Assembly (NCBI GenBank): GCA_018902385.1
Contig: JABSSW010000045.1
Location: forward strand, 339,717 to 403,716
DNA: 64,000 nucleotides
Direction: 5' to 3'
From: Physcia stellaris
Lineage: Eukaryota; Ascomycota; Lecanoromycetes; Caliciales; Physciaceae
This document shows positions 55,226-64,000 of this stretch, piece by piece. The notes under the pieces are model-generated. The model ran no database searches. It was not told where the DNA came from and worked only from the letters and a program-made list of their open reading frames with translations. Numbering within the stretch: the first letter of the stretch is position 1; each line of letters begins with the position of its first letter. The position numbers and the translations under genes were made by a program.

Positions 55226-55882
55226 CGCAGCTTGCTGGTTGCAGTTCGTGCGATTTGTGAACCTTGCGACAGATTTAGGACTGTCTTTGAAAATCAACTC
55301 TGCAAAGAACCTTGACTCTGAGAAGGATGGCGTAGGCGGTTATATGCGTGACTGAGTGAGAAAGACACAGCGTCATACGATCTCCAATTCGGCAAACACC
55401 ATCTCAGGGTCCAGACCGGCCACTAGGGGACGACCTTCAGTACATCTTCAAATCGACTGTCAGACTGCATGGAGTCGTAAATCATTGATTGCATGATGTT
55501 CTATCCAGTGCTAATTTCCACGTTTCTAGCATTTAATGTCATTGGAGTGCGCACTAGTTACTAAGCTCTTGGCGGCCTCTGATTGGCCATTTAATTCTAC
55601 ACATCTTTTTAGGAGGAAATATCTGATATTTCGTTTTATTTTTGATGTTTTATTCATTTTTCGATGTGATTTTTGATGCGATTTATTCGATTTCTGATTG
55701 ATCGAATTCGTTGTTTTTTTCGATTTTGATATCGAAATAAATTCTAAATCAATCAGTTTCACGAATGTTTTCTGTTTTTGAAATGATAAAATCTTGATGA
55801 AATCATCGATCAAAATATTCGCTGTAAAAATTTATTGAATGTTGATCGTGTTTTTTTGCGTTTTTTTGACGTAATTAATGAT
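55226..55882. other. Transition from gene DNA to AT-rich repeat DNA
   Basis: Copper-transporter promoter to about 55,600. From about 55,610 base composition falls sharply and CC, GG, CT and AG become scarce, although less extreme than inside the element. This looks like the edge of an older repeat into which the LTR element inserted. No gene. Confidence 0.6.
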
Positions 55883-56076
55883 TGTTATGACGCAAAATCA
55901 AATTAGATGATTTGAATTTAGATCGAATATTTTTGCAAGACATTTGACAAGAATTCTGTCATCATTTCATATTAAATGAGCGATGATTAAACAACTAATT
56001 CGCAATTATTGTACATAAATTGGAATTTTGATCATCATAATTTTTAAATCAATTCATTCACACATTAAGCATAACA
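55883..56076 (+). repeat. 5' long terminal repeat
   Basis: About 194 bp, starts TGTTATGACGC and ends AAGCATAACA, with short terminal inverted repeats TGTTATG/CATAACA. It matches 63142-63336 closely apart from scattered, mostly transition-type differences and small indels. It keeps a few more CT and AG dinucleotides than the interior. Confidence 0.9.
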
Positions 56077-57128
56077 ATTGATAACATCATTCAAGCGATG
56101 ATTTGTACGTAAACAAAACGACATCATTTTTTGTCTTTTAACGTATCAATCTTCGAACAGTTTTGCATTTTGTACGCAAATCATCTGTTCATCAGTATTT
56201 TTTTCGCTGTCGTTGTTGAAAGTTTTATTGCTCGCTCGACTCGACGTGTCGATCGAAATCAATTATCAGTAACAAACATTTAATTGAAGATGAGAATTTC
56301 AATCAAATTTTCTCAATTTTCTACAATTTTCAACAAAGACGACTGATTTTTCATTCAAATATTCAGAACATTTCGATTTTTCGTGAAAATTCGCATTGTC
56401 ATCGCTCAATGACGACACATTTGAATGTCAATTCACATTTGAATTTTTGTTTGATTCGAACAATTTAATTCAACGATTTCATCTGTTTTTCATCAACAAA
56501 TAATTTGTTCAACAAGTCTTGAAGACTTCAATTCGTTTTTTTTTTTTTGTTTTGTTTATCATCATTTTATTTCAGATTTCAATACGACACATTTTTTTCA
56601 TTTAAGTCATTTTGATTGTTTTCATATCACAAATCATTCGCATTGCGTTTGAATTATTCGATTACATCGATACAATTGATTCAATTTATTTTGTCAATAC
56701 ATCGACAGAAATTACTGTGAACAACATCGTAATTAATTGTTTTAAATCAACATCGTTGTCAATTATTAATCATTCAATTTCGACAAACATTGTTTATTCA
56801 GCAAAATGAATCGTCGACAAAATTCGTTTTCGCAAAAATTTTAAAACTTTCGTGATCGTCACAAAAATTTATCGAAATAATCAATCATTTTTCGATTAAA
56901 TCAATGATCGTGTTACGTCATTCATTTTTGATTTAAAATCGACGATTGCAAATATTTTTTTTGATATTTTTTACATTCATATTTCGAAAAATTTACGTCG
57001 TAAATTTCAAATCATCTCGTCGATCTCGTTTTTTCAACGACGAAACAACATCATAATTTCGCTGAATATTATTTTTCGAAACACAAAAAATATCGAATTT
57101 ATTTTCGCATTTAATACAAACATGACGA

Positions 57129-58660
57129 ATGAAAATAACAATTGACAAAACATTGAATTCATTCAACAACAATGACAAACATTTCAGATTTTGTTCGAAA
57201 ATATCAAAAACAACATTCAAACAAAATTTTCAAAATTCGTCGAATCATCAAATTCAATCGAATTTTTTGACAATGATGATGACGTCAAATGAAATGTTCA
57301 AAAAACAAAATTTTTTGATTCGTGATACGAAAAAAAAAACGTTATTATCGACAATTCGATCGAACATTCGAACAAAAACATATATTTTCGAAATGTTCAT
57401 TTTTACATTGAAAAAATTAAAAATATGACATTGTTCAAAAATGTTGATATAATTCGAACAAATTTTTATAATTGCATGCGTGATCACGCGTTACGTTGAT
57501 ACACAAAAATAATCAACGACAATTAAAAACGATTGATCAAATTCGAAAATGACGTAAAAAAATGAAAACGTTTGTTGTTGAAACGATGAAAAAATTGTTA
57601 TCGACAACGTTGACGATTATCACGAAAAAAAAATACACGATAAAAAATGTTCGTCGATATCGCGAATTATTCGATTTCGTTAAAATTATAATCAAAAAAA
57701 TTAAATCGACAATGATGTCAATTTATTCGCAATTGTATTTAATTTACAATGAATTGAAATTGAAATTTCGACGAAATTTGATCAAATCGACAAAAAAAAT
57801 TACAATGAACGAATTTTTTCAACAATTTGATGATAAAAAAAAAATATGATGAAACATCGAAAATCGATATCGATTTTATCATTCGTTCGAAAAAAACATC
57901 GTTTTCAATTTATTTATCGTTTTCAATTATCAATTTTGTCAACATCATTCGATTCGTATAATATTTTTTGTTATCAATGAGCGTGTAAATTACGAAAATT
58001 TCAATGAATTTTTTCGCAATTTCGTCAAATTCAATATTCGATATCGTATCAATTTGAAAAACAAAATAACGTTTATATTTTTCAACAACGTTCGTATCAA
58101 TCAAATTATTCAAATCGACAACAATCGACACAAAATATGCAAAAACGTTCATACGAAAATCAGCAATATCGATTTCAACAAACGCAACAAAACGAAATTC
58201 AAAAAAATCGAAACACGTTCGATTCGCGATTTCAATATTCGCAATTTTTACGTTTGAATAATTATTTTGTTGATTTTTCAACATCATTTTCGTTTTCGTC
58301 AAAACAAAATATTTATTTCAATCAAAATGAAACGTTTAATCAAAATGAAACATTATATCGACGAACGTATTTTGCGAATGAAAAAACAAAAAACAATTAT
58401 TCGAACGACGAAAAAAATTATCAAAACGATCACAACATGAATATTGAAAACGCGTCGAAAATATTTGCGATAAATGATGAATATCATGACGAAAAACATT
58501 TCGAAATTCAAAAATTTAACGAGAATTTTGTGAATCATGAATTATTCGAATATTTTGTGAATATTTTTGTCAAATAAACGAAAATTTATTCGTGCAAACG
58601 TTGTCAATCGAAATTTTATTTTAATAATAAATTTCATCGATATTTGCGTTCGTCTCAAAT
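57129..58660 (+). pseudogene. Gag-region relic with zinc-finger-like motif
   Basis: Several open stretches (57129-57428, 57562-57849, 58137-58577) in different frames are very rich in Lys, Asn, Phe and Ile, as expected from an AT-driven gag gene. Near 58585-58650 a Cys-x2-Cys...His pattern (Y-S-C-K-R-C-Q) followed by N-N-K-F-H recalls the zinc finger near the gag-pol junction of fungal gypsy elements. It is non-functional. Confidence 0.65.
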
Positions 58661-58787
58661 AATTTCGATTAAATTTGACACATCGTTAACGAAAAATGTT
58701 CACGATCATCAAATATTTATTATACAATCAAACGTCAAAACAAATATTAAATTCAATTTTGAATTTCGTTCGTGACGTTACGTCACG

Positions 58788-61700
58788 ATGAAAACAAACA
58801 TTGAACAATGTTTGATTAATATGTGCGTCGATACAAAATGCGATGCGTCATTAATCGATCGTAAATTTTTTATGCAAAAAATATTTGATTATCGAATTCA
58901 TGCGCGACAAATTATGAAATTTTTCAAAATTCGCGACATTGAAAACGTCGTTGTCACAATCATTAATTATATTTCATTAATTTTTCGAATTTTCGAAATT
59001 TCAATTAATGACGAAAATGCGATTGTCACGTTCACTCGACAAATTTACATAATGAAAAAATTGAAAACAAAAATTTTTTTTGACAATGATATATTGAATT
59101 CAAAACGAATGAATATAAATGTAAACAAACAAATGATTATCATTGAAAATTGCAAAAACATTAAAATACAATTGAATGTTATCAATGCAAATTCACAAAT
59201 CAAACGCGTGACTCGTGTCAACGAAATTATTAAAATATCAATTGAATCAACATTTACGATTTTTTTCAAATTACGTGAAAAAAATAATCTATTTATTGAA
59301 CGCGATTTTATGTTCACGTTTTCGCGAATTGAACGTTTAAATCAAAATGAAAACGTATTTTTTCATATCATTGATGCACATACAAAAATGATTCAAACGA
59401 ACAACGTCAATTTTGAAAATGTTTACATTTTCAAAAATACGCGTTTGAAATTCGTACAAAAATACGAAAAAAAAAATATTATTTAGTTAATTCGAAATAC
59501 GCGCATTTAATTGTTAATGTTCATAAATTTGTTTCACGCAATTGATTCAAACAAATTATGAAATTTGATGTTTCGATTTTGATCGTTGACGCGATTATCG
59601 CGACTAATTATGAAAATTTGCACGATGCGATCGCGTTTAATTTCGTCGTTTCAAATTTCAATTTTACGATCAATTTTGCAATTAATTCGTGCGAGAATTT
59701 TAACAATTCTGTTTCAAATTCAAACATTAATGTTGAGAAAATTTTGTTCGCAAATATCACGATTTACGATGATATTAACGCACGAATTAAGTTTGCAAAT
59801 GTAATCGAAAATTATTCAAAATTGTGAAATGATAATGAATTTATTGTACGAATTTCGCTTGAAAAATGAATGTCAATTGAATTCAAATTCGACGCGAAAA
59901 TCGAAACAACGAAAATTTATTTTTTGAATTTCGCAAATCGAAAGTTTGTTGATGAAATTTTCGATAAATTGCACGTTCAAAATCGCATGAAATACATCAA
60001 TTAATTCATTTCGCATGATTATTTTGTTTTCATCGTTTGAAAAACAATATTTGAATCGAATGATTCAAAACGCAAAAATCGAATTGTCGTCGATATACGC
60101 GAATTAAACAAAATCATTATTATCGATTTTTATTCAATGTTTTTTCAATTTAACATTATTGCAATTGTCGTCGAATGCAAATTCATTTTCGTTTTCGACG
60201 TAACAAATTTTTTTCATCAATAATTGATAAAATTTGCAAACAAATATAAATTTATTGTCGTTTCACATAAAAAACAAAAACAGTTTAACGTCGCAATGAT
60301 AAAATTCAAAAATTTTTCATCATACGTACAACGACGAATCGATTTTATTTTTCGAAATTTTCGCGAATTTGTTCGCGTTTACGTAAATGATATTGTTGTT
60401 TTTTTCAATATTTTTGAAAAACATATCGTTTATTTACATTCGATATTCGAACGATTGAATATTTATGAAATTAATTTTTCGTTCAAAATTTTTTTTCGAT
60501 TATTTTACGATCGCATTTTTTGATCAAAAAATCGACGTTTTCGATTTAATTATCGCAATTGACAAATTAAAAACGATAATCAAATTGAATTTTTTTTACA
60601 TTTTGAAAAATTTGAAAATTTATTTAAATTTAACAAATTGATTACGAAAATTCGTCGCGTTTTACGTTCAAAAAACGAACGCGTTACAACGTCGCAAAAT
60701 TTTATTTTTACGACAATCATTTTTCAACAAAAACATCATTCGCAAAATTTATTCGCAAAAAATCGTAATGAACAATTTTTCAATTGAAAAATTAAAATCA
60801 TATCGATTATTGCAAAAAACTTTTAACAAAATTTCATTTTTGATACATTTCAATTTCGATCGACAATTGTACATCGACATTGACGCGTTTAAACGACGCG
60901 AATTCGACGCGATAATATATTATTTTAAAACAAACAACAATTTCGACAAATTCAAAAAAAATGATATCGAATTCATTTTATTTTTAAATAAAATGTTGAA
61001 CGAAATCGAAATCAAATATTGATTTATTGAATTTAAAATGTGTGATTTAATTTGAATTGTCAAAAAAATTCGATATATGATAAAAACAATCAAAAATATT
61101 ATCGTTGTTTTTACAAATTATATCGTTAATATTTTTATCGTTAAATAAATCACGATAAATTCGAACAACACAAATAAATTCAATTTTCGTTTCGTTCGTG
61201 TTTTCGTTTATTTGTCGCAATTTAAATTGAAAATTAAATATAAATTAAAAAAAAATCATGTTGTATCGAATGCGTTATCAAAATTAACGTTTGACAATAA
61301 ACAAATCGACGTGAATTCAAAAAATAAATTTGATTTGAACACATATCATGAAAAAATGATCGATTTTTCGAATAATTTCGATTGTTACGTTTTTCAAAAC
61401 ACATTCATCGCAATGTCGAAAAATTTAAAAAAAAAAATCAAAAACGAATATCAAAAAAAAAAACGTGACGAAACATGATCGAAATGTTAAAATCGTTGAC
61501 GATTCGAATGCAAAAAAAAAAAAAAATTGTCGATTCGAAATTTTCAAATTTCATCGTCGTTCGAAAACAACGTAATGAAACGAAACGTCAATAAACAAAA
61601 AAAATGACGATACGAAATTTATATCAAAAAAATTCAAAACAAAAATCAATTTCGCGTTGAATACGAATGACATTATATATCATGTTGACATTGACACGCA

Positions 61701-62990
61701 TCGATCGTGTATATTTGTTGTTGTGAAACGCGAAATATTTCGTTTAATTCACGATACGAATTAGCACTCAAAAATTCATCGATGTTATGACAAAATTTTT
61801 AATACGTTATACATATTTCGATTTTCGCGAAAAATTAAAAAATACATCGAACATTGTTTTATTTGTCAATTGACACAAATCAAACGTCATCGATTGTACG
61901 AAAAATTTATGTTTATTATATTCGTTTCGCGTTCGTTTCATATCGTTGTCGTTGATTTTTATTCTAATTATGTTCGACGAAATGAACATTGTCATATTCG
62001 CAACATGCAAACATTTTCGTCGAATTTCATTGATTTTCGACAAAAACATTTATGAAACGAAAAAATGAATCAACGCATTATTGAACAAATTATTAATCGT
62101 CGATTGAAAAATGTTTGAAATTATAATTTTCGATCGTGATTCAAAATTCATGTCGAATTTTTGACAAATGTTTTTCATCAAATTAAACACGAAATTGTTA
62201 ATTTCAATGACATATCATTCGCAAACGAACGATTCGTCAAAACGAATCAATCAAATTGTTGAAATTGTTATCAAATATTTCGTCATCGAATTTTCGAACA
62301 TCGATTACATTTTAATTTTTTTGCAATTCAAACTCAAATTAAATAACACGTTTAACATCGTTACAAATTTATCATTCAATGAAATCATATACGAATTTAA
62401 AATCAAAAACGCGATATTAAATTTAATTGCATTTAACACAACAAATGTACAAAATTTGTCAATTTAACGCATAAAATATCAGCGAAAAATTGTTGATATC
62501 ACGAATTTCGCGATTGTTAAAATCAAAATATATTATGATTCGCGTTATATTTCGATTCGATTAAAACAAAACGAAAAAATTTATTTACAATTTAACAAAA
62601 ATTACAAATTGTTTGACAAATCAAATTCGAAATTATTTCAATAACGTTGCGAATCATTTCGAATTTTGAACGCATTGAACGTTTCGCGTACAAATTGAAA
62701 TTGTCATCAACATGACGAATTCATTTCGTTGTATTTATTGCGACAATTCGAATTAATATTCGTTAACGTTGATTTTTACAATCGTTTTCGTTTTCATTAT
62801 TTTGATTTCATTGAAATTGAAAACGATACGAATCAATACAAATTTTATGAAATCGAAAAATTAATCGACAAACGTATCAAAAAATACAACAAAATTTTCG
62901 TAATTCAATATTTAATCAAATGAATCGATTATGAATCGAAATATGACGAATAACGATTTATTTTCGAATTACAAAATTTTCAGAATTTCA
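58788..62990 (+). pseudogene. Pol relic: protease, RT, RNase H, integrase, chromodomain
   Basis: The protease active-site block is near 58820-58850 (C-V-D-T then A-S-L-I-D). The reverse transcriptase lies at about 60200-60530, with the catalytic box reading Y-V-N-D-I-V-V-F, where one catalytic Asp has become Asn. RNase H is at about 60770-61030 (L-Y-I-D-I-D-A). The integrase lies at about 61800-62470, with the Cys-x2-Cys of its zinc site and the Y-H-S-Q-T-N block. A chromodomain at about 62830-62990 shows the Y-E-I-E-K-L-I-D start, with two expected Trp codons now TGA and TAA. The pieces lie in different frames and contain many stops. The observed changes fit G-to-A after A or G and C-to-T before C or T. 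Confidence 0.85.
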
Positions 62991-63141
62991 TTGAGCAATA
63001 CGAACTCAATCATTCGCAAAATTTTGATGATCGCAACGACAAAAAAAAACGAAAAAATAAATTGATGCATGATATGATTACGCATGATAATAAAACATAA
63101 AATTCAATAAAAACATTGATTTTTTTTTTTGATTGACAAAA

Positions 63142-63336
63142 TGTTATGACGCAAAATCAAATTAAATAATTTGAATTTAAATCGAATATTTTTGCAAAAC
63201 ATTTTGACAAAAATTCTGTCATCATTTCATATTAAATGAATGATGATCAGACAATTGATTCGCAATTGCAATACGTAAATTGACATTTTGTTTTTCATAA
63301 TTTTTAAATCAATCAATTCACACATTACGCATAACA
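63142..63336 (+). repeat. 3' long terminal repeat
   Basis: About 195 bp, begins TGTTATGACGC and ends ACGCATAACA; direct copy of 55883-56076 at an offset of 7,259 bp. The differences suggest that both copies mutated after insertion. Confidence 0.9.
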
Positions 63337-63494
63337 ATGACGATGTATATCGACATGACGTAATTTAATGATTAATTTAATCGTTGACATAATAAACGTT
63401 CGTATAATTTGACGATTATCGCATTGAATGTGAATGAATTTTTTATATTCATTTGTATTGATTCAAAAAAATGATTTCATCACATTTTGATGTT

Positions 63495-63594
63495 TGTTAT
63501 GAATAAAATCTGAATTGATTGATTTAAAAATTATGAACATCAAATGTTAATTTATGTACAATAATTGCGAATCAATTATCTGATCATCATTCAT
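63495..63594 (-). repeat. Truncated inverted LTR copy
   Basis: On the - strand this stretch matches the distal half of the LTR (63236-63336) base for base over long blocks, ending at the CATAACA terminus (TGTTATG at 63495 on the + strand). The other half is missing. It is a third family member, inverted relative to the full element, about 160 bp beyond its 3' end. Confidence 0.85.
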
Positions 63595-64000
63595 AGTACA
63601 CTTTTTATAAAAAAATGTTCAGTTTTTTTTTATGAGAAAATGTTATTTCGATCGAAGCATCAGTTGTAAAGATTCAGAAACATCAACTTTCATCGCATTT
63701 TCATTCACAATCAATCACAATGCACACGAATTCATGAAATCATCAAATTGTAAAACTAATTCAGCGCATTTCAACGCATCAACAATCATTAAAAACGAAT
63801 ATATATCAAGAATGTTGTGAAGTTCAGAAATATCGAAATTTTTTGGCTCGTCAAGCTTGTCCGCAAATCAAGATTTGATTTCGACTCATTCAGAATCTTT
63901 TGTTAAATTCGATGTTTTTCATCAATATTTAATTCAGATTTTCAATCAGAAAATATATCATTGCACTTTGAAACTAGCACGAACATCAAAACAACTCGAA
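63595..64000. other. AT-rich sequence to the window edge, nothing identified
   Basis: AT-rich DNA with a 62-codon frame (63632-63820) that I do not consider a gene. Unlike the element interior it retains AG, CT, GG and CC, so it is either a less mutated repeat or ordinary AT-rich intergenic DNA. Confidence 0.4.

Follow-up and report, generated by a model that had tools for sequence, protein, structure and literature searches.

A probable RIP-type process with CpY specificity in transposons of the lichen fungus Physcia stellaris

Described RIP contexts and their relation to Physcia

RIP is described as directed at CpA/TpG, and according to a kingdom-wide k-mer screen from 2025 a CpA preference is common to RIP-like defences (PMC12543289). 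C-to-T signatures at CpA and CpT were reported in transposons of Botrytis cinerea, Sclerotinia sclerotiorum, and Magnaporthe oryzae, while Microbotryum and Tuber display CpG-directed C-to-T changes in transposons; the term CpC is absent from the main text of that report (PMC4352252). Loss of CpC is known from Stagonospora nodorum, where CpC and GpG are among the depleted dinucleotides (PMC2621366), and from Monilinia, where CpC-to-TpT double mutations occur (PMC8959702). Among lichen fungi, Cladonia rangiformis carries RIP-mutated, AT-rich repeats (PMC12542154; the available text contains neither "dinucleotide" nor "CpA", and no dinucleotide context was found in it), and Cladonia metacorallifera and Gyalolechia flavorubescens are classified as RIP-affected by CpA-based indices (van Wyk 2021, PMC7882544).

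The present analysis covers one genome, that of the lichen mycobiont Physcia stellaris, and is based on a stretch of 64,000 nucleotides (the window) together with 47 loci, picked as transposon or methyltransferase matches rather than at random. As in Neurospora crassa RIP (RID, with DIM-2 for older repeats), C-to-T changes affect both strands of transposons and approach saturation in the most mutated copies, transitions are far above transversions, and RID- and DIM-2-like genes are present. Unlike in N. crassa, CpC is hit first, CpA is over-represented, and TpA is scarce. In Botrytis, Sclerotinia, and Magnaporthe CpT accompanies CpA, whereas in Physcia the leading target is CpC and few CpA sites are changed. 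S. nodorum and Monilinia share the loss of CpC in transposons, but there CpA-to-TpA is given as the dominant or classical form; Microbotryum and Tuber share a non-CpA context, but CpG is the least affected context in Physcia. Like the three lichen fungi named above, P. stellaris contains mutated AT-rich repeats. CpA-based indices (high TpA/ApT, low (CpA+TpG)/(ApC+GpT)) flag C. metacorallifera and G. flavorubescens, whereas none of the 345 low-GC 1-kb windows of Physcia (47 loci and the window) passes them, i.e., no CpA-to-TpA preference is found. No report of a CpC-first, CpA-sparing RIP was found among the open-licence papers searched; the subscription literature on RIP contexts (e.g., Clutterbuck 2011) may contain related observations.

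The CpY-depleted zone and its Ty3/gypsy element

The hypermutated zone (positions 55,601–64,000, no strand assigned), delimited by a 100-bp profile of CpY/RpG and by the observed/expected ratio (o/e) of CC in 1-kb bins, has a sharp left edge: 23 CpY/RpG are present at 55,501–55,600, and the next bins contain 7, 4, and 1. From 56,001 onward CC o/e is 0.00–0.06 in every 1-kb bin, up to the window end. The zone exceeds a degenerate Ty3/gypsy LTR retrotransposon on the plus strand (55,883–63,336), recognized by paired LTRs and weak RVT_1 and Integrase_H2C2 pieces. These limits, proposed by an earlier sequence-only reading, do run from LTR to LTR: the 5′ LTR (TGTTATG...CATAACA; 55,883–56,078) and the 3′ LTR (63,142–63,338), both on the plus strand, are 87% identical over 197 blastn columns, the final two aligned bases of which may fall outside the LTR. 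A possible 5′ target-site duplication of only five bases, ATGAT (55,878–55,882, plus strand), has the 3′ counterpart ATGAC (63,337–63,341); the mismatch is possibly that expected from a CpT-to-TpT change beside the first T of the LTR, the C of the 3′ copy preceding G. An inverted partial LTR copy (63,494–63,594, minus strand; 80% over 102 columns, E 6e-22) lies in the mutated right flank.

The usual reverse-transcriptase motif is YVDD; the plus-strand reverse-transcriptase piece at 60,224–60,520 (weak RVT_1, E 0.044, below cut-off) contains YVND, as read by eye, which corresponds to a G-to-A change after a purine and agrees with the Asp-to-Asn replacement proposed earlier. The integrase zinc-binding piece (Integrase_H2C2, PF17921; 61,765–62,052, plus strand; E 6.7e-5) reaches 23.4 bits, just below the cut-off of 25.5. 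For the middle part of the element, 40 of 152 candidate matches in the genome were scored, self and partial pieces included; the non-self matches among those scored are 85–96% identical.

Within 57,241–57,960, CC, GG, CT, and AG are all absent, as the sequence-only reading had claimed; 1,000 mononucleotide shuffles of this segment gave a mean of 20.3 CC+GG (minimum 11) and 67.8 CT+AG (minimum 48). The whole element contains one CC/GG against about 220 expected and 70 CT/AG against about 708 (shuffle means). The sole exception for CC/GG is a GG near 56,022, inside the 5′ LTR, and of the 70 CT/AG that remain, 42 fall within 55,883–57,100 (5′ LTR and leader). Among residual plus-strand CT, 13 of 34 stand in CTC. 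The dinucleotide count suggested by the same reading gave o/e values of 0.00 for CC, 0.10 for CT, 1.31 for CA, 3.72 for CG, and 0.44 for TA: CA, TG, and CG are in excess and TA is low, in keeping with its description of surviving CpA and non-dominant TpA. The GC content is 25.7% in the element and 49.8% in 1–55,882; across 1–55,500 the lowest sum of CC, GG, CT, and AG in any 720-nt window (20-nt steps) is 130.

Direction, context, and tempo of the changes

The direction of change was polarized in 28 mutated copies of another Ty3-like family that retains an intact copy, rather than in the family of the window's element. C-to-T changes affect 12,090 of 12,752 CpC sites (95%), 9,678 of 11,906 CpT sites (81%), and 1,065 of 12,296 CpA sites (9%), and CpG-to-TpG changes 549 of 12,088 sites (4.5%). 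Rates per copy range over 0.77–0.99 for CpC, 0.44–0.98 for CpT, 0.03–0.13 for CpA, and 0.02–0.08 for CpG. The effect of the 5′ neighbour is small (0.93–0.97 for CpC, 0.77–0.85 for CpT), and both strands are mutated. These rates bear out C-to-T change at CpC and CpT on both strands, the explanation offered by the sequence-only reading, and CpA-to-TpA, which would have contradicted it, is not the dominant change. Decay of CpG methylation was rejected as an explanation in view of the same CpG-to-TpG count and the excess of CpG in the element.

That the family always lacked CC and CT, or that the whole genome mutates in this manner, is hardly credible. AT-rich DNA looks superficially similar, and no support for such compositional bias was found. 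The intact copies L016 and L017 (the same loci as L002 and L003) have normal CC and CT, the opposite of what would have contradicted the sequence-only reading; they are 95% identical over 3.4 kb, their differences are free of context bias, and C-to-T rates in L017 are 0.02–0.04 in each context. The gene-bearing windows examined are clean: CC o/e falls below 0.3 in none of 159 gene-bearing 500-bp windows (window 1–55,500 and three methyltransferase loci, all non-random), as opposed to 374 of 378 low-GC 500-bp windows. CA o/e is below 0.8 in none of the latter.

A slow loss of 5-methylcytosine left by DIM-2-type methylation with CpT/CpC preference, acting over long times without RIP, is very unlikely. 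A DIM-2-like gene is present in the genome, and a 2026 review credits Neurospora DIM-2 with methylation chiefly at non-CG sites, CpT being preferred (PMC13297926). Against such decay, copies can be as little as 3 transversions yet up to 371 transitions apart (L018 versus L036, 3,453 bp), a ratio that between close copies indicates hypermutation. In L036, CpC and CpT are nearly exhausted at 0.6% transversions to the intact copy: estimated hits per site are 4.2 for CpC, 3.9 for CpT, 0.08 for CpA, and 0.03 for CpG, compared with 0.006 transversions per site from L016, a several-hundred-fold excess. In the distant pair L032/L036, 312 transitions stand beside 93 transversions; C:G-to-T:A transitions dominate in both comparisons, as in RIP. 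Several copies (L032, L034, and L045, among others) stand about 90 transversions apart from most others, and the family therefore does not consist of young copies alone.

DNA methyltransferases typically respond to the 3′ neighbour of the target base, AID/APOBEC enzymes to the 5′ neighbour, and the latter edit only DNA that is reverse-transcribed or single-stranded. A cytosine deaminase of the AID/APOBEC kind, working on single-stranded cDNA or on R-loops, would account for strong C-to-T hypermutation of retroelements, but it is the 3′ neighbour that sets the context here and both strands are mutated. CpY depletion or its stop-codon trace is found in gypsy, copia, and DDE_1 DNA transposons, and the equal involvement of the last makes an editor tied to reverse transcription less plausible; such a deaminase is very improbable. 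In the most lightly mutated copy (L018), the strands are unequal by region (41/54 versus 6/37 in one 300-nt block), a pattern that would fit a strand-processive enzyme.

CpA changes are raised in the most mutated copies, with a maximum of 60/448 in L042, as would be expected if canonical CpA RIP also operated and the CpY changes formed a second layer made by a second enzyme. This combination is quite improbable, given that, across the 47 loci and the window, no low-GC window shows the CA depletion considered above or passes the CpA-based indices.

Repeat-directed hypermutation by a RIP-type process with CpY specificity (CpC > CpT >> CpA > CpG) is the most probable reading of the sequence patterns, and the different-context RIP-like system envisaged in the sequence-only reading gains support from the 28-copy alignment of the other family. 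The enzyme would pick cytosines by their 3′ base, taking C before a pyrimidine, CpC first and CpT next, on both strands, until these sites are near exhaustion in the most mutated copies, while CpA and CpG are almost spared. The presumed agent, a cytosine-5 methyltransferase of the RID/Masc1 or DIM-2 type, would attack duplicated DNA during the sexual phase, with C converted directly or via 5-methylcytosine. The sequenced culture was derived from ascospores (PMC7513301), an origin that shows sexual reproduction only. Two mutated families, the only ones with copy number shown, are multicopy. Since the intact pair escaped, either repetition by itself does not suffice in every case or these copies have not passed the relevant phase. 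The RIP context described elsewhere, CpA, counts against RIP with CpY specificity.

Candidate methyltransferases and implications

The search for RID/Masc1- and DIM-2-type methyltransferases, advised by the sequence-only reading, recovered both types: RID1 of the EQT type, its EET-type paralogue RID2, and a DIM-2-like gene, all of which, where checked, have reading frames interrupted only by apparent introns. Two TGA codons seemed to break RID2; both lie inside 54–60 bp insertions absent from the Heterodermia orthologue, apparently introns. Among the named lichens matched other than Physcia, an EET-type RID2 occurs only in Heterodermia. The EET triad is also found in B. cinerea Rid (PMC6709928). 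As a sole determinant of CpY choice it is unsupported, because Aspergillus RIDs (and those of Talaromyces) are also EET and the context given for A. niger and A. fumigatus is CpA and CpG (PMC4352252). The mutator may be any of the three: DIM-2, the EQT-type RID, or the EET-type paralogue. A tentative and rather doubtful possibility is that RID2 took over as the working RIP mutator, with CpY specificity, and that the lineage swapped CpA RIP for CpY RIP; if so, surveys using CpA indices would have taken such lineages for RIP-free.

The sparing of CpA sites causes the usual RIP indices to score heavily mutated DNA as untouched (0.43 and 1.40 for the element at 55,883–63,336). Most of the gained stops arose as TGG became TGA, in line with the Trp-to-TGA changes listed in the sequence-only reading, and not as TAA or TAG; gene prediction and the calling of RIP therefore need other settings in the P. 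stellaris genome. Physcia presents a C-to-T mutator that works on transposons to saturation and avoids CpA, in contrast to the conclusion of the 2025 k-mer screen. In vitro activity of the RID family is so far undetected (review, PMC13297926). If the process is RIP, its dinucleotide rule would be evolvable, CpA-based indices would have blind spots, and the natural pair of RID paralogues would offer a route to asking what determines target choice.

A CpY-depleted element, probably within mutated repeats

The element at 55,883-63,336 of the window bears out the near-loss of CC, GG, CT and AG claimed in the sequence-only reading: it retains a single CC/GG and 70 CT/AG, whereas 1,000 mononucleotide shuffles average 220 and 708; 57,241-57,960 contains none of the four (shuffle means 20 for CC/GG and 68 for CT/AG). 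CpA and CpG survive and TpA is not dominant (observed/expected, o/e, 1.31, 3.72 and 0.44, respectively). The 5' LTR and leader (55,883-57,100) hold 42 of the 70 residual CT/AG, and the differences between the LTRs include transversions; this end could be of more recent origin, a product of recombination or less exposed to mutation.

Between the paired LTRs (55,883-56,078 and 63,142-63,338, 87% identical), a Pfam scan in eight pieces found part of a reverse transcriptase (weak, E 0.044) and, at E 6.7e-5, part of an integrase zinc-binding domain; both scores fall under the Pfam cut-off, and the remaining six pieces had no relevant match. From these sequence features the element is read as a degenerate Ty3/gypsy retrotransposon. 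Its middle has at least 40 matches in the genome at 85-100% identity, itself and partial pieces counted. The presumed target-site duplications, ATGAT (55,878-55,882) and ATGAC (63,337-63,341), differ by exactly the change expected of CpY (CpC + CpT) mutation beside the LTR. As the mutated zone sets in within about 100 bp at 55,600, ahead of the element, extends to the window end and takes in part of an LTR, in inverted orientation, to the right of the element, the latter is probably nested in older mutated repeats.

Target and direction of the mutation

The intact Ty3-like element L016 (also cut out as L002) is normal in composition and keeps an open frame of 1,024 codons, so that intact copies are not themselves poor in CC and CT. 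A DNA search with it (40 of 254 candidates scored) listed 44 matches, the best 30 of which were cut out as loci: L016 itself; L017, likewise open and 95% identical to it; and 28 mutated copies (L018-L045). Summed over these 28 copies, C-to-T changes affect 12,090 of 12,752 CpC and 9,678 of 11,906 CpT sites, as proposed for both contexts, and the dominant change is not CpA to TpA (1,065/12,296 at CpA; 549/12,088 at CpG). Rates per copy range over 0.77-0.99 for CpC, 0.44-0.98 for CpT, 0.03-0.13 for CpA and 0.02-0.08 for CpG; between L017 and L016 they are 0.02-0.04 in all four contexts. The 5' neighbour shifts the CpC rate only from 0.93 to 0.97.

The lightest mutated copy, L018 (CpC 360/466, CpT 191/430, CpA 14/451, CpG 10/446), identifies CpC as the first target, with CpA on a par with the intact pair. 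Since the CpA rate reaches 0.13 in the most heavily mutated copies, CpA is targeted weakly, not avoided altogether. Few sites that are T in the intact element are C in a mutated one (for example, 19 in L036, none of them before C or T); the direction is therefore C to T.

The process is hypermutation, not slow decay. Between L018 and L036 there are 371 transitions and 3 transversions, and between L036 and L041 there are 64 and 3; estimated hits per site in L036 are 4.2 at CpC, 3.9 at CpT, 0.08 at CpA and 0.03 at CpG, with 0.006 transversions per site to L016. About 90 transversions separate L032 and the other members of a more distant group from most copies. Some of the mutations may be shared among copies through common ancestry. 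Strand inequality is regional in L018 (e.g., 41/54 versus 6/37 in one block, where L019 has 42/53 versus 25/37).

Against the 28 mutated copies, L016 (G000:C5:1165021-1168497) and L017 (G000:C12:58811-62278) are open and unmutated. They are 95% identical across 3.4 kb, dN is 0.0045 and dS 0.199 (775 aligned residues), and the protein appears strongly constrained by purifying selection. The two may be recent arrivals, may be protected, or may have the mutating phase still ahead.

Breadth within the genome

The genome searched, in which the window is G000:C45:339717-403716, comprises 44 Mb in 147 contigs. The P. stellaris genome paper describes axenic cultures grown from ascospores and an assembly from nanopore and Illumina reads that totals 46.57 Mb with 43.32% GC; in its accessible text no statement on repeat-induced point mutation (RIP) was seen, the three matches to 'rip' being RiPP peptides (PMC7513301). 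Given that assembly GC and the mean GC of mutated and normal windows in the examined loci (28% versus 50%), about 30% of the genome would be mutated, the loci being a non-random sample.

Of the reverse-transcriptase loci, L005-L008, which lie on four other contigs, carry the CpY signature (partly weaker in L006), whereas L001-L004 are without it. Eight of ten DDE_1 transposon loci, representing seven places (L051 and L055 overlap) and including the mixed L053, drop to a CC of zero or nearly zero in one or more 500-bp windows; the effect is weak in L049 and absent in L046. Normal DNA adjoins the mutated part in L051 and L052. TGA, the expected product of TGG to TGA, lies inside 138 of 150 RVT_1 domain matches (150 scored of 527 candidates), 131 of 137 for RVT_2 and 9 of 10 for DDE_1; stops gained in the 28 copies are TGA 335, TAA 43 and TAG 2.

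Window statistics, drawn from the window and 47 loci (55 less eight that overlapped others), gave CC o/e below 0.3 in 374 of 378 low-GC 500-bp windows and CA o/e below 0.8 in none; depletion was absent from all 159 windows taken from three methyltransferase loci and the gene-bearing stretch of the window. CpA-based RIP indices, at cut-offs of 1.1, 0.9 and 0.01 (looser than the stringent ones in the available text of PMC7882544), called none of 345 low-GC 1-kb windows, and no window had a composite index above 0. CpY/CpR below 0.4 called 343 of the 345, along with 10 of 25 intermediate-GC and none of 201 high-GC windows. Of 53 flanks (1.5 kb each) adjoining the 28 copies, 51 are mutated, which is no sign of spreading because the query is part of a longer element.

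Known RIP contexts and candidate methyltransferases

In the accessible sections of the literature, RIP is described as CpA-directed, with CpT added in some species and CpG in others (PMC4352252; PMC2621366), and CpC-to-TpC is among the four possible forms that RIPCAL distinguishes (PMC2621366). Pyrimidine contexts are not without precedent, given that CpC is among the depleted dinucleotides in S. nodorum, where CpA nevertheless dominates, that CpT exceeds CpA in Neurospora Tad1 (both PMC2621366), that Monilinia has CpC-to-TpT double mutations alongside classical CpA changes (PMC8959702), and that CpT-to-TpT is mentioned as the dominant change in alignments from RIP-capable control fungi (van Wyk 2021, PMC7882544). 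CpA is less preferred in Monacrosporium haptotylum (PMC3828140). The text available of a 2025 survey still has CpA preference as common to RIP-like mutation (PMC12543289). No case in which CpC leads and CpA is spared turned up in the searches of open-licence literature.

A PF00145 profile search for the suggested RID/Masc1- and DIM-2-like methyltransferases recovered three genes. L014, open over 1,118 codons with an ENV triad, matches the solved structures 9bap and 9baq (DNA (cytosine-5-)-methyltransferase; E 5e-188) and is read from its sequence as DIM-2-like. The triads are EQT in RID1 (L015) and EET in RID2 (L013), both known in RID-like proteins according to the accessible text of PMC6709928. 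The open frame of RID1 matches a Physcia stellaris protein at 99% identity across 95% of its length. An ENT triad replaces these in the RID-like proteins P0098 (Circinaria calcarea) and P0086.

RID2 (G000:C6:788500-796500), the second RID-type gene, is apparently intact with two small introns. Its homologues are up to 94% identical, one being in Heterodermia, which like Physcia belongs to the Physciaceae. A tree built from 160 RID-like proteins (search restricted to 0.55-1.75 times the query length) places RID2, along with Aspergillus and Talaromyces, in a group of 39 EET proteins. Of these, 33 form the branch with RID2, where Physcia and Heterodermia are the only named members; ten further EET proteins outside the group indicate that the triad is not unique to it. 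RID2 is the favoured candidate for the mutator on a weak association: among the named lichens matched it occurs only in Physcia and Heterodermia, and the DNA data come from a single genome.
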